64,000 nt of DNA, taken from contig NZ_JAUNKO010000006.1 of NCBI RefSeq assembly GCF_030532715.1, positions 209,383 to 273,382 on the forward strand, written 5' to 3'. The stretch comes from Corynebacterium sp. GTDB lineage: Bacteria; Actinomycetota; Actinomycetes; Mycobacteriales; Mycobacteriaceae. Shown one piece after another: positions 52,944-57,539 of the stretch. The notes beneath the pieces are model-generated. The model saw only the letters and a list, made by a program, of their open reading frames with translations. It was not told the origin of the DNA and did not search any database. A program made the translations under genes and the position numbers. Each line of letters starts with the position of its first letter. The first letter of the stretch is position 1.

Positions 52944-54008
52944 TTACTTATTGAACGCGCGCTCAAACGTGGGCCACGAAGTGCGCAGGTCCTCTTCCCA
53001 ATAACCCCAAGAGTGAGTGCCGGTGGGGCGGAACTTGAAGTCGCCGGGGACGCCGACCTGATCCATCTTTGCCTTCAGGTCGTGGGTGCACTGGTTCGTA
53101 GCGGCTTCGATGGCGCCGCCTAGGATCTTCACGTTTGCCTGTGCGATCGAGTTGTTGTTCAACCGTGGGTTGGACAACATGTCGTACTCGCCGGACATGC
53201 CGGAGCCGTTAGATACGTACACCTCGGTGCCGCGCAACTTCTCGGCATTGATCAGGGCGTCGTTGTAGTGCCACAGCTCGGTGCCCAGCGGGCCCCACAT
53301 TTGCTCACGGTTCACATTCCCGCGCTTGAGGGTCTCATCCAAGTACCACACGGCGGTGCCACGCGAAGTAGCAGCACAACCGGAGTAGGAGCCCACAGCG
53401 TCATAGAAGCCTTGCTGGTGCTGCGCGTACAACAAGGAGGTGGTGCCCGTCATGGACATGCCGACGATGGCGCGCTTGTTGTTCGCCTTCAGGTAGCTTT
53501 CGATCGGGCCGGGTAGCTCCTTGGTAAGGAACGTCTCCCACATTTGCTTGCCGCCGAGTTCCGGAACCTCGGAAACCCAGTCGGTGTAGTAGGAGAATTT
53601 GCCGGACATTGGCATGACCACGTTGACGTTCTTCTCGCGGTAGAAGTCAACGACATCGGTTTGCATGATCCAGTTGGCAATGCCCTCGCCGCCGTCGGCG
53701 CCGTTCAACAGATAGATCGTTGGGCGATCCGCATCTTTGGCGGGGATGACCACGAATGGGACATCGCGCTGCATCGACGGGGAGAACGCCCAAATTTCGC
53801 GGACATCGTCACGGCCGGCGACCTTCTGGCGCCACGTCGGCTCTGGAACATCCGTGCGGGCATTCGGGTTGATGGTGGCGAGCGGGATGTCACCAGCAAC
53901 TTGAGCAGGGGTCAACTCGGCGGCGGTAGCGGAACCAACGGACGCCAAGGCGGCTGCGGCCATGGCGAATGCGGTTACCGGGGCGGCAAGACGGCGCGCT
54001 AGGTTCAT
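52944..54008 (-). CDS. Trehalose corynomycolyltransferase (antigen 85-like), copy 1
   Basis: 354-aa secreted enzyme that transfers mycolic acids from trehalose monomycolate to trehalose or cell-wall arabinan. A signal peptide (AFAMAAAALASVGSATAA) is followed by the esterase-like alpha/beta fold. The nucleophile is in VGMSMTGTTS, and the His is in PTGTHSWGYW near the end. Two Cys (SGCAAT and NQCTHD) may pair. AGAAAGAAG lies before the ATG. The gene shares a 261-bp identical block with copy 2. C. glutamicum has cmt genes in a comparable place. Confidence 0.95.
   Translation of the reverse strand: MNLARRLAAPVTAFAMAAAALASVGSATAAELTPAQVAGDIPLATINPNARTDVPEPTWRQKVAGRDDVREIWAFSPSMQRDVPFVVIPAKDADRPTIYLLNGADGGEGIANWIMQTDVVDFYREKNVNVVMPMSGKFSYYTDWVSEVPELGGKQMWETFLTKELPGPIESYLKANNKRAIVGMSMTGTTSLLYAQHQQGFYDAVGSYSGCAATSRGTAVWYLDETLKRGNVNREQMWGPLGTELWHYNDALINAEKLRGTEVYVSNGSGMSGEYDMLSNPRLNNNSIAQANVKILGGAIEAATNQCTHDLKAKMDQVGVPGDFKFRPTGTHSWGYWEEDLRTSWPTFERAFNK
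53017..53277 (-). repeat. 261-bp exact repeat, copy 1
   Basis: Identical base for base to 54691-54951. It covers the C-terminal catalytic region of both mycolyltransferases, including codons for DMLSNPRLNNNSIAQAN and NQCTHDLKAKMDQVG. Flanking sequence is clearly more diverged, which suggests recent gene conversion. Confidence 0.95.
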
Positions 54009-54087
54009 GATGCTTCTTTCTGCGTTTCTGCGTGCGGGGCTACTATCTACAAGCCTTCAACAAGCAATGCAACGGTTTCAGTTCACA

Positions 54088-54099
54088 CTACGTTAACAT
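54088..54099 (-). promoter_or_regulatory. Shared 12-bp motif upstream of mycolyltransferase copy 1
   Basis: CTACGTTAACAT (plus strand) lies 80 bp before the ATG and recurs before copy 2 at 81 bp. It contains the palindrome GTTAAC. In both cases it lies 39 bp upstream of a -10-like hexamer (TAGATA at 54044-54049 here), so a regulator site just upstream of the -35 region is likely. Confidence 0.55.
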
Positions 54100-54617: not shown

Positions 54618-55682
54618 CTAGTTATTGAAGCCGCGCTCCAGGGTCGGCCAAGAAGTGCGGAGATCCTCCTGCCAGTACCCCCAAGAGTGGGTGCCGGTGG
54701 GGCGGAACTTGAAGTCGCCGGGGACGCCGACCTGATCCATCTTTGCCTTCAGGTCGTGGGTGCACTGGTTCGTAGCGGCTTCGATGGCGCCGCCTAGGAT
54801 CTTCACGTTTGCCTGTGCGATCGAGTTGTTGTTCAACCGTGGGTTGGACAACATGTCGTACTCGCCGGACATGCCGGAGCCGTTAGATACGTACACCTCG
54901 GTGCCGCGCAACTTCTCGGCATTGATCAGGGCGTCGTTGTAGTGCCACAGCGGAGTGCCCAGCGGGCCCCACATCTGGGTGTGGTCCATGCCGCCGCGCT
55001 TGAGCACTTCGTCTACCCACGCGACCTGGACGCCGCGAGAGGTGCCTGCGCAGCCGGAGAAGGAGCCCACGGCGTCGTAAAACCCGGGGTTGTGTTCCGC
55101 ATACAGCAGGGAGGTCGTGCCCGTCATGGACATGCCGATGATCGCGCGGTCATTGTTAGCCTTCAGGTAGCCCTCGATGGGACCCGGAAGCTCCTTTGTG
55201 AGGAATGTCTCCCACATTTGTTTGCCGCCGAGGCGGGCGGGCTCGGTCACCCAGTCCGTGTAGTAGGAAAGCTCGCCAGACATGGGAATTACCACGTTGA
55301 CGTTTTTCTCGCGGTAGAAGTCAATCACGTCGGTCTGCATGATCCAGTTAGCGGTACCCTCGCCGCCATCAGCACCGTTGAGAAGGTAAATCGTCGGGCG
55401 GTTTTCCTCGTGTGCGGGAATGATCACGAACGGGACGTCACGCTGCATCGAAGGGGAGAAGGCCCAAATCTCGCGGGCGTCCTCGCGGCCAGCAATCTTT
55501 TCGCGGAACTTAGGTGCCTCAACATCGGTGCGGGCGCTGGGATTAATTGTTGCTAATGGTGTGTCGCCAGCAACTTGGGCGGGTGTAAGCTCCGCTGCCA
55601 TCGTGGGGCTGGCGGTGGCCACCGCGGCAAAAGCCAAGGTCAAGGCCGTAGCTGGCGCGACAAGGCGACGCACAAAGGACAT
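54618..55682 (-). CDS. Trehalose corynomycolyltransferase (antigen 85-like), copy 2
   Basis: 354-aa paralogue of copy 1 with the same organisation: signal peptide ending near TMAAELTP, nucleophile in IGMSMTGTTS and His in PTGTHSWGYW. The ATG at 55682 has GAAGGG 7 bp ahead; a start 33 bp upstream would spoil the signal peptide. A TAAGGT -10 candidate lies at 55719-55724. It is divergent from the 36-codon gene at 55843. The last third is identical at DNA level to copy 1, while the middle differs at many positions. Confidence 0.95.
   Translation of the reverse strand: MSFVRRLVAPATALTLAFAAVATASPTMAAELTPAQVAGDTPLATINPSARTDVEAPKFREKIAGREDAREIWAFSPSMQRDVPFVIIPAHEENRPTIYLLNGADGGEGTANWIMQTDVIDFYREKNVNVVIPMSGELSYYTDWVTEPARLGGKQMWETFLTKELPGPIEGYLKANNDRAIIGMSMTGTTSLLYAEHNPGFYDAVGSFSGCAGTSRGVQVAWVDEVLKRGGMDHTQMWGPLGTPLWHYNDALINAEKLRGTEVYVSNGSGMSGEYDMLSNPRLNNNSIAQANVKILGGAIEAATNQCTHDLKAKMDQVGVPGDFKFRPTGTHSWGYWQEDLRTSWPTLERGFNN
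54691..54951 (-). repeat. 261-bp exact repeat, copy 2
   Basis: Identical to 53017-53277, offset 1674 bp in the same orientation. See copy 1. Confidence 0.95.
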
Positions 55683-55762
55683 AATTTTCCCTTCTAATTG
55701 CTGAGATTGCAGCACTGAACCTTATTGGTTCATAGCAGTTGCTATATCCGAAAGAGTGGCTT

Positions 55763-55774
55763 CTACGTTAACAT
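55763..55774 (-). promoter_or_regulatory. Shared 12-bp motif upstream of mycolyltransferase copy 2
   Basis: CTACGTTAACAT, 81 bp before the ATG of copy 2 and 39 bp upstream of TAAGGT. It lies between this gene and the divergent 36-codon gene, so it could control both. Confidence 0.55.
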
Positions 55775-55842
55775 CTGATGGCAGTATGTTTCCGGCCACG
55801 TTGGGAGCATCCAAACTACTACCACGGATTGGAGATCAACCA

Positions 55843-55953
55843 ATGAACATTATTGAGCAGATTCAGCTCGCGATTAACTCGGCCCTTGGCAATCTTTCCC
55901 ATGCAGGTTCTTCAGGTGTGAGCTGGATTCTTGCCGCATTCCGGTTGCTCTAA
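55843..55953 (+). CDS. 36-aa peptide, candidate small mycomembrane porin
   Basis: A short gene too small for routine calling. The ATG at 55843 has GGAG 8 bp ahead. The product has no signal peptide, is helical and amphipathic ([17 protein letters not shown]), has a Ser/Gly-rich centre (HAGSSG) and a hydrophobic end ([10 protein letters not shown]). Its own terminator follows 68 bp downstream, so it is a free-standing unit. Size, lack of signal peptide, Ser content and position beside mycolyltransferases fit the very small PorA/PorH-type channel peptides of corynebacteria, some of which are O-mycoloylated. No residue identity to known porins was established. Confidence 0.6.
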
Positions 55954-56021
55954 GGTTCCATAAGGTTTCGTGTGGATCTGGGTTAAGGTTCGGCTCCTTC
56001 GCTCGGAAACTGCACCCCTGT

Positions 56022-56069
56022 AAAGCACCCCCATCGTTGTGTAACAACGCGATGCGGGGTGCTTTCTTT
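56022..56069 (+). terminator. Terminator after the 36-codon gene
   Basis: A 10-bp stem AAAGCACCCC (56022-56031) pairs with GGGGTGCTTT (56056-56065), with TTGT/ACAA pairing inside, and is followed by CTTT. Confidence 0.82.
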
Positions 56070-56123: not shown

Positions 56124-57539
56124 GTGACTGAACATTTTGACGTTGTTGTACTTGGCGCGGGCCCTGGTGGATACGTGTCCGCTATTCGAGCTTCCCAACT
56201 CGGCTTGAAGGTCGCGGTTGTGGAAAAACAGTATTGGGGCGGTGTGTGCCTCAACATTGGCTGCATTCCGTCGAAGGCGCTCCTGAAGAACGCTGAACTA
56301 GCACATACTTTCAATCATGAGGCGAAGTTGTTCGGTATTTCCGGCGACGTCTCCTTCGATTTTGGTGTCGCCCACGACCGCTCCCGGAAAGTTTCCGCGG
56401 GCATTGTCAAGGGTGTGCACTACTTGATGAAGAAGAACAAGATCACCGAGTTTGACGGCTTCGGTGTGTTCAAGGACGCCAAGAGCCTGGAAGTTACCGA
56501 AGGTAAAGACGCCGGCAAGACCATTACCTTTGATAACTGCATCATCGCTACCGGCTCCGTCGTGCGCTCATTGCCGGGCGTGGAGCTGTCCGGCAATGTG
56601 GTGTCCTTCGAAGAGCAGATCCTGTCGCGGGAGCTGCCGGATTCCATGGTGATTGTCGGCGCGGGTGCCATTGGTATGGAATTTGCCTATGTGCTGTCCA
56701 ATTATGGCGTGGACGTCACCATCGTGGAGTTCATGGACCGCGTCCTTCCGAACGAGGATGCGGATGTGTCCAAGGAGATTGCTAAGCAGTACAAGAAGCT
56801 TGGCGTGAAGCTGCTCACCGGCTACAAGACCACCGCGGTGCGGGATAACGGTGATGTTGTTGAGGTGGACGTAGAGTCCAAGGACGGTTCCAAGACGGAG
56901 ACGCTGAAGGTGGATCGCGTGATGATCTCCATCGGCTTCGCTCCCCGCGTGGAGGGCTACGGCTTGGAGAACACGGGCGTGAAGCTCACCGATCGCGGCG
57001 CGATTGATATTGATGAGCGGATGCGCACCAACGTGCCTGGTATCTACGCTATCGGCGATGTCACCGCGAAGTTGCAGCTGGCGCACGTGGCGGAGGCCCA
57101 GGGTGTTGTCGCGGCTGAAACGATTGCCGATGCGGAGACTATGGAGCTGGGCGACTACATGATGATGCCGCGCGCCACGTTCTGTAATCCGCAGGTGGCG
57201 TCCTTCGGCTATACCGAAGAGAAGGCTCGGGAAATGGCGGCTGCCGACGGCCGCGAGATTAAGGTGGCTACCTTCCCCTTCTCCGCCAACGGTAAGGCGC
57301 AGGGTCTGGGCGAGTCCGCTGGTTTTGTCAAGATCGTTGCCGACGCCGAGTTCGGCGAGCTGCTCGGAGCGCACATGGTCGGCTCCAACGTGTCCGAATT
57401 GCTGCCTGAGCTCACGCTCGCGCAGAAGTTCGATCTGACGGCGGAGGAAATCGGCCGAAATGTGCACACTCACCCGACCCTCTCGGAGGCGATGAAGGAA
57501 GCCGCCGAAGGTATTTGTGGTCACATGATCAACTTCTAG
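56124..57539 (+). CDS. lpd: Dihydrolipoyl dehydrogenase
   Basis: 471-aa FAD flavoenzyme (E3) that reoxidises dihydrolipoamide in the pyruvate and 2-oxoglutarate dehydrogenase complexes. FAD-binding [15 protein letters not shown] is followed by the redox disulfide [13 protein letters not shown], then NAD-binding [14 protein letters not shown] and the C-terminal His-Glu pair in [10 protein letters not shown]. The GTG at 56124 is the start: TATTCT lies at 56111-56116, 7 bp ahead, indicating a leaderless mRNA. It precedes the ramB-sdhCAB region as in C. glutamicum. Confidence 0.97.

Follow-up and report, generated by a model that had tools for sequence, protein, structure and literature searches.

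In the window analysed here, the whole 64,000-nucleotide stretch of Corynebacterium sp. DNA, a 36-aa ORF that is divergent from a mycoloyltransferase gene is a genuine free-standing gene. It probably encodes a mycomembrane protein of small size that has so far gone unrecognised and is a substrate of the neighbouring Cmt1-type mycoloyltransferase. No earlier description of the peptide was found in print (supplementary tables and most subscription journals lay outside the scope of the search), nor was any experiment on it found in the literature. It is not described in section 8 of PMC4046766 or in the consulted part of PMC3890552. The ORF may already figure among the eight small mRNAs listed in Additional file 5 of PMC4046766.

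A free-standing gene with its own expression signals

The gene and the elements around it are as follows.

55780..55811, + strand: nearly invariant block 5' of the peptide gene (four-species alignment)
55831..55834, + strand: ribosome-binding site GGAG, 8 nt 5' of the ATG, kept in three close relatives
55843..55953, + strand: 36-aa peptide gene (ATG at 55843, stop codon at 55951-55953; candidate mycoloylation sites S23, S24 and S27)
56022..56069, + strand: intrinsic terminator in the gap between the peptide gene and lpd (-27 kcal/mol, z -6.3), kept in relatives
56124..57539, + strand: lpd, encoding dihydrolipoamide dehydrogenase, 3' neighbour of the peptide gene

The terminator consists of a hairpin and a T run, and its folding energy compares with -10.4 +/- 2.6 kcal/mol for shuffled sequences. 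An intrinsic terminator separates the peptide gene from lpd in the window, in locus L001 and in a C. glutamicum-like genome. A generic promoter/terminator scan of the DNA picked up neither a promoter nor a terminator of the 36-aa gene. The block at 55780-55811, which could be a promoter, a leader or a regulator site, matches no promoter type tried in the four species. Judged by eye, the peptide is too short to accommodate a signal peptide plus a mature part. An earlier note on this DNA had described a signal-less 36-aa ORF with a ribosome-binding site and a strong terminator of its own, divergent from a mycolyltransferase gene, and each of these features was recovered at the positions given here, the ATG of the mycolyltransferase gene being at 55682.

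The peptide is conserved across much of Corynebacterium

Lpd was scanned for in a species collection and the best 80 loci were kept. The first 48, all titled Corynebacterium, form the named set, and the remaining 32, from other genera apart from one 'Corynebacterium-like bacterium', entered the profile search only. Similar short ORFs were found 5' of lpd by script, and 15 of these were built into a profile. At E <= 0.01 it matched 151 of the 201 Corynebacterium genomes searched; the window's own genome contains a single match to it, even at E <= 10. A 34-member profile applied to 151 genomes covering 31 genera of Mycobacteriaceae yielded seven matches, all in Corynebacterium, and did not detect the family in the other 30 genera. 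Within the named set, 38 of the 48 loci carry the peptide at E < 1e-3. At this threshold it was not detected in L004, L010, L019, L020, L021, L028, L029, L045, L046 and L047, of which L019 holds a weak candidate only (E 0.24). As a control, the loci were reversed: the best profile match among 26,810 open stretches then had an E value of 2.2.

The peptide genes of the window and of L001 differ at 13 codons, 10 of them changed synonymously. When 15 non-overlapping close pairs were pooled (equal length and >80% nucleotide identity only), pN/pS was 0.14, with 109.5 synonymous changes over 395.5 sites and 46.5 non-synonymous changes over 1221.5 sites. As judged from these comparisons, selection is acting at the protein level on the 36-aa product. 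Conservation of the frame in relatives, which the earlier note had named beforehand as a test of its proposal, is thus what the genomes display, and a chance ORF was ruled out by the genome count, the pN/pS value and the reversed-loci control.

Anatomy of the peptide

A typical member reads MNPIEQIQLQINEVLGQLIHxGSSxSSxIALxLGLF, a consensus that looks like two helices flanking a Gly/Ser linker. Fifty-eight distinct members were compared: all have G16, 56 have H20 and 56 have S27, whereas N12, S24 and S23 are kept in 54, 53 and 52, respectively; 57 carry an acidic residue (E or D) at position 5. The serines at positions 23, 24 and 27 sit in or next to the Gly/Ser linker and form the most conserved stretch apart from G16 and H20. 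The GSS core is absent from the peptides of L003, L015, L019, L022, L023 and L037, four of which keep S27. Residues 5, 12, 16 and 20 share one face of putative helix 1 (residues 2-20).

The peptide had been called amphipathic in the earlier note, and for helix 1 this was borne out: its hydrophobic moment in the window's peptide is 0.40, compared with 0.19 for shuffled sequences (p 0.02), and 42 of the 55 members tested reach p < 0.05. The C. glutamicum-like member falls short of this level (p 0.10), and the second helix of the consensus displays no amphipathicity (p 0.5). No Pfam family scored above its cut-off for family members and none matched the window's peptide; NCBIfam, its PorA/PorH models included, returned nothing up to E 1 for the window's peptide, the C. 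glutamicum-like ortholog or the 15 alignment members, and a profile search of the PDB with the peptide family gave no match.

The gene is linked to a Cmt1/MytC-type mycoloyltransferase

Two mycoloyltransferase genes precede the peptide gene in the window.

54618..55682, - strand: Cmt1/MytC-type mycoloyltransferase, divergent neighbour of the peptide gene (PDB Cmt1 at E 2e-135 versus PS1 at 5e-46)
52944..54008, - strand: second, tandem Cmt1/MytC-type mycoloyltransferase, 82% identical to the 54618-55682 copy

The solved Cmt1 structures nearest to the divergent enzyme are 8qhf and 4h18 (E 2e-135). This enzyme and its tandem twin are 59% and 60% identical, respectively, to the same Cmt1-like enzyme of the C. 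glutamicum-like genome, and at most 42% identical to any of the other five mycoloyltransferases of that genome. By sequence, the divergent neighbour is of the protein O-mycoloyltransferase (Cmt1/MytC) type. Loss of Cmt1/MytC has been reported to abolish the mycoloylation of PorA, PorH and ProtX (PMC11927696). The tandem Cmt1-type duplication is present also in genomes G115, G150 and G200.

All 38 named peptide loci have a mycoloyltransferase gene upstream on the opposite strand, at a distance of at most 1 kb in 36 of them, and comparison with the six enzymes of the C. glutamicum-like genome puts it closest to the Cmt1-like one in all 38. The same arrangement and enzyme type were found in 27 of 30 further loci (loci L001-L048 and L081-L110 share some species). 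In L091, L094 and L110 no such arrangement was seen within the 3.1 kb examined; the L091 peptide is the same as that of L036, in which the enzyme is 2.2 kb off. The peptide genes of L094 (genome G157) and L110 (genome G145) have neither the enzyme nor lpd within these 3.1 kb and adjoin an ORF that by eye resembles a membrane transporter. Genome G157 has its sole peptide copy located elsewhere, and G145 has two copies. In 12 of the 38 loci (>150 bits; 14 loci at a looser cut-off of >60 bits) the peptide gene is separated from lpd by an extra Cmt1-type gene, and because the divergent enzyme stays adjacent in these 12 loci, the peptide follows the enzyme and not lpd.

At the level of whole genomes, 182 encode a Cmt1-type enzyme (E <= 1e-78) and 149 of these have the peptide, as do 2 of the 19 that lack such an enzyme (Fisher 5.8e-10, uncorrected for phylogeny and with the limit of E <= 1e-78 set after some of the results were seen). 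Read the other way, 149 of the 151 peptide-positive genomes have such an enzyme, and G133 and G149 have the peptide with no enzyme at this limit. L046 and L047 (C. amycolatum and C. lactis) have neither an enzyme at the locus nor the peptide, and the best enzyme match in these genomes is at E 1e-45. C. amycolatum is not known to have mycolic acids. In L028 and L029 (C. jeikeium), as in L020 and L021, a window-like mycoloyltransferase precedes lpd and the peptide was not detected.

The main rival to a mycomembrane protein, to which we give a small but not negligible probability, is that the peptide assists or regulates the Cmt1-type enzyme and serves it alone, binding it and tuning its activity or export, and is not itself a membrane protein. 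The tight linkage of peptide to enzyme fits this role, for which the small protein Cgl2215, which binds MytA and boosts its esterase activity (PMC10441969), provides a precedent, and the invariant G16/H20/N12 face could serve binding. However, 33 of the 182 enzyme-bearing genomes, C. jeikeium among them, have no detected peptide, which indicates that the enzyme does not need it. In addition, purified MytC mycoloylates PorA without a helper (PMC11927696), and the peptide belongs to a class of signal-less, amphipathic short peptides whose known members are Cmt1 substrates.

Comparison with known small envelope proteins

The earlier note had proposed the peptide as a candidate minimal porin of PorA/PorH type and had placed the genes for channels of C. 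jeikeium and C. urealyticum near mycolyltransferase genes. Membership of PorA/PorH was not supported, and the placement was wrong. A PorH-like and a PorA-like ORF, divergently oriented, lie between GroEL and PPK2 in the window's genome (L112 883-1029 and 1079-1201); the PorH-like ORF matches NCBIfam porH_2 at E 0.0037 and the PorA-like ORF pora_1 at E 0.01, both below cut-off. The family profile scored ProtX at 0.8 bits, the PorH-like ORF at 0.1 and the PorA-like ORF at -0.4, and none of the four matches that it gave in the C. glutamicum-like genome at E <= 10 was ProtX. A relocated PorA or PorH was rejected on the candidates present at groEL2-ppk2, the missing NCBIfam match and profile scores of at most 0.8 bits, and a ProtX ortholog on its score of 0.8 bits and its absence from the C. 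glutamicum-like matches. As for the C. jeikeium and C. urealyticum channels, PorACj (jk0268) and PorACur (cur_1714), their genes lie in the interval from GroEL2 to PPK2 and are not neighbours of mycolyltransferase genes (PMC3792995, PMC5944148).

Resemblances to these proteins are nevertheless several. ProtX (Cg2875) has 38 aa, is signal-less and amphipathic, and is encoded by a lone gene of the sigmaD regulon; it is mycoloylated on Ser37 and is unlabelled in a mytC deletion (PMC5310785). It differs from the peptide in that it has no profile similarity, lies at another place in the genome and carries its modified Ser at the penultimate position, whereas the candidate serines of the peptide are in the central linker. 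PorA and PorH are also short (45 and 57 aa), signal-less and helical, and the target of mycoloylation in PorA, Ser15, is in a short linker between helices (PMC11927696); however, they are encoded at groEL2-ppk2 and not at a Cmt1-type/lpd locus, and do not match the profile. PorACj and PorACur are one-component peptides of about 40 aa (PMC3792995, PMC5944148) and jk0268, like the peptide gene, has its own ribosome-binding site and terminator, but their position between GroEL2 and PPK2 sets them apart. We lean towards the view that, next to PorA/PorH and ProtX, the peptide stands for another kind of signal-less mycomembrane protein. According to the O-mycoloylome paper, the mapped mycoloylation sites tend to be Ser residues among Gly, Ala and Ser. 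The consulted part of that paper does not mention the peptide, and its method is described there as less than ideal for small proteins. A family member was found neither at the C. jeikeium lpd loci L028 and L029 nor in genome G134 (coordinates as in the L028 genome), and loss of the peptide may accompany possession of a one-component porin, as with PorACj in C. jeikeium.

The case of PorACj also bears on a second rival, in which the peptide would be a non-mycoloylated pore-forming or membrane-active peptide (a PorACj-like channel or other) and its adjacency to the enzyme would reflect co-regulation only. PorACj produced in E. coli also has channel activity (PMC3792995), hence in the absence of mycolate, and helix 1 of the peptide is amphipathic. 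Nonetheless, linkage is specifically to a protein mycoloyltransferase, and apart from G16 and H20 no stretch is better conserved than the serines; we hold this possibility to be improbable, and retain a mycoloylated protein as the preferred reading.

The C. glutamicum-like ortholog and the published sigmaD promoter P2lpd

Genome G212, alone among 242 genomes, contains the published ProtX verification primer sequence. It also has a 38-aa ORF (L113 1292-1408) with Ser at positions 3, 10, 21, 32, 37 and 38 and a mass of 3874 Da, and the same Ser positions and mass are published for ProtX (PMC5310785). On the basis of the primer match and this ProtX-like ORF, we take G212, the C. glutamicum-like genome, as C. 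glutamicum. Its member of the peptide family is MPIHEQIIFFINEILGYGLHAGSSAFSNLSHSIGLF (E 1.7e-15); a text query with the first ten letters of this peptide retrieved no paper. Downstream of the gene come a terminator (-26.3 kcal/mol, z -4.8) and lpd, and the Cmt1-like gene is 24 kb away. Genome-reduced C. glutamicum strains without cg0414-cg0440 exist (PMC7533341), a deletion that may include this ORF.

In C. glutamicum, cmt1 and lpd have been listed among 11 sigmaD-dependent genes (PMC6338062). According to the same study, the promoter P2lpd lies 360 nt 5' of the lpd start codon, has GTT at -10, was tested as an lpd promoter and may yield a potential small RNA; Plpd is induced by phenol, lpd itself is raised on phenol, and lpd is not sigmaD-dependent in C. 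glutamicum R. In locus L114 the lpd GTG is at 1775, and subtraction of 360 nt leads to position ~1415; a CTAACG-N17-GTT motif is present at 1380-1405 and the peptide ATG at 1501. The P2lpd RNA would hence start ~86 nt before the ORF, and it should stop at the terminator ahead of lpd, although read-through beyond it into lpd is possible. The P2lpd transcript is thus probably the mRNA of the 36-aa gene (promoter and gene at L114 1380-1611), in contrast to its published description as an lpd promoter product or small RNA and not a protein gene (PMC6338062). If P2lpd belongs to the 36-aa gene, lpd may have been wrongly listed as a sigmaD target, and the phenol induction of Plpd would then extend to the peptide. 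Against this assignment stand the rise of lpd itself on phenol and the report that lpd does not depend on sigmaD in C. glutamicum R.

The published description corresponds to a third rival, in which the ORF is a leader peptide or a small RNA controlling lpd, with no protein function of its own. Besides the C. glutamicum transcript (PMC6338062), lpd being the next gene in many loci speaks for it. Three observations argue against it: the low pN/pS signals selection at the amino-acid level, a terminator stands ahead of lpd in the C. glutamicum-like genome as well as in L001 and the window, and in 12 of 38 loci another gene precedes lpd although the enzyme is still adjacent. Both an lpd leader peptide and a plain small RNA were set aside as very improbable.

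We then counted sigmaD-type motifs in 61 distinct regions 5' of the peptide gene. [GTC]TAAC[AG]-N17-GTT, a guided choice as the GTT form was picked after the description of P2lpd was known, is present in 15 of the 61, as compared with 0.07 expected from the rest of the loci. The controls for this form were the peak at spacing 17 (0-3 regions at each of the other spacings from 10 to 26), the background count and mononucleotide shuffles. The GAT form at N17 occurs before the peptide in four of the 61 regions. A looser motif (spacings 16-18, GAT or GTT) is found in 22 regions versus 2.0 expected, with a maximum of 7 in 300 mononucleotide shuffles, and the strict sigmaD consensus GTAAC-N14-19-GAT is not enriched before the peptide (4/61 versus 1.5 +/- 1.1 expected). 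In the direction of the enzyme, the GAT form at spacing 17 occurs in 13 of the 61 regions and the GTT form in 12, many of the latter being mirror images of peptide-direction sites, because TAACG-N17-CGTT is nearly its own reverse complement and GTT matches therefore arise on both strands. This sequence may alternatively be read as a dyad operator.

In the window, the enzyme gene has a candidate promoter of this type.

55746..55771, - strand: sigmaD-type promoter motif TTAACG-N17-GAT of the enzyme gene (-35 at 55766-55771, -10 at 55746-55748)

This motif, identified with the consensus from PMC6338062, is kept in four related species. In the same four-species alignment, no sigmaD-type site was found before the peptide gene, so that for the window's clade the sigmaD link concerns the enzyme side. 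By eye, the 52944-54008 copy has TTAACG-N17-GTT at 54071-54096, where the other copy has TTAACG-N17-GAT.

A proposed model for the 36-aa peptide

We infer the translation, export, mycoloylation, membrane location and oligomerisation of the peptide, and propose the following course. A helix-linker-helix peptide of 36 aa would be translated from its own short mRNA, which in C. glutamicum would start at a sigmaD (envelope-stress) promoter, cmt1 being sigmaD-dependent there too. The peptide would leave the cell by the route of PorA, PorH and ProtX, and Cmt1/MytC, encoded back to back, would esterify mycolic acid onto a Ser of the linker or its edge, the candidate acceptors being S27, the most conserved, then S23 and S24. 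The lipid would anchor the peptide in the mycomembrane, where its amphipathic helices would probably oligomerise; formation of a pore is plausible. Several observations run counter to this model: 33 genomes with a Cmt1-type enzyme have no detected peptide and two have the peptide but no such enzyme, the two genes are 24 kb apart in the C. glutamicum-like genome, six loci lack the GSS core, helix 2 of the consensus is not amphipathic, and no sigmaD-type site was found before the peptide gene in the window's clade. A more specific version, which we advance only tentatively, is that the peptide is a dedicated Cmt1 substrate, induced by envelope stress together with the enzyme and self-assembling into a stress-time pore or surface structure.

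Two questions are touched by these data: which proteins the protein mycoloyltransferase modifies, and by what route peptides lacking a signal sequence get to the mycomembrane. Both can be approached directly through a 36-aa candidate substrate whose gene adjoins that of the enzyme in much of the genus and which also occurs in a C. glutamicum-like genome. The candidate may also explain how the central-metabolism gene lpd came to be credited with a sigmaD envelope-stress promoter: the gene served is very probably the small one that lies between this promoter and lpd. If the stress-pore reading is true, the peptide would rank with the smallest pore subunits in nature and would be what the sigmaD 'lpd' promoter really drives.
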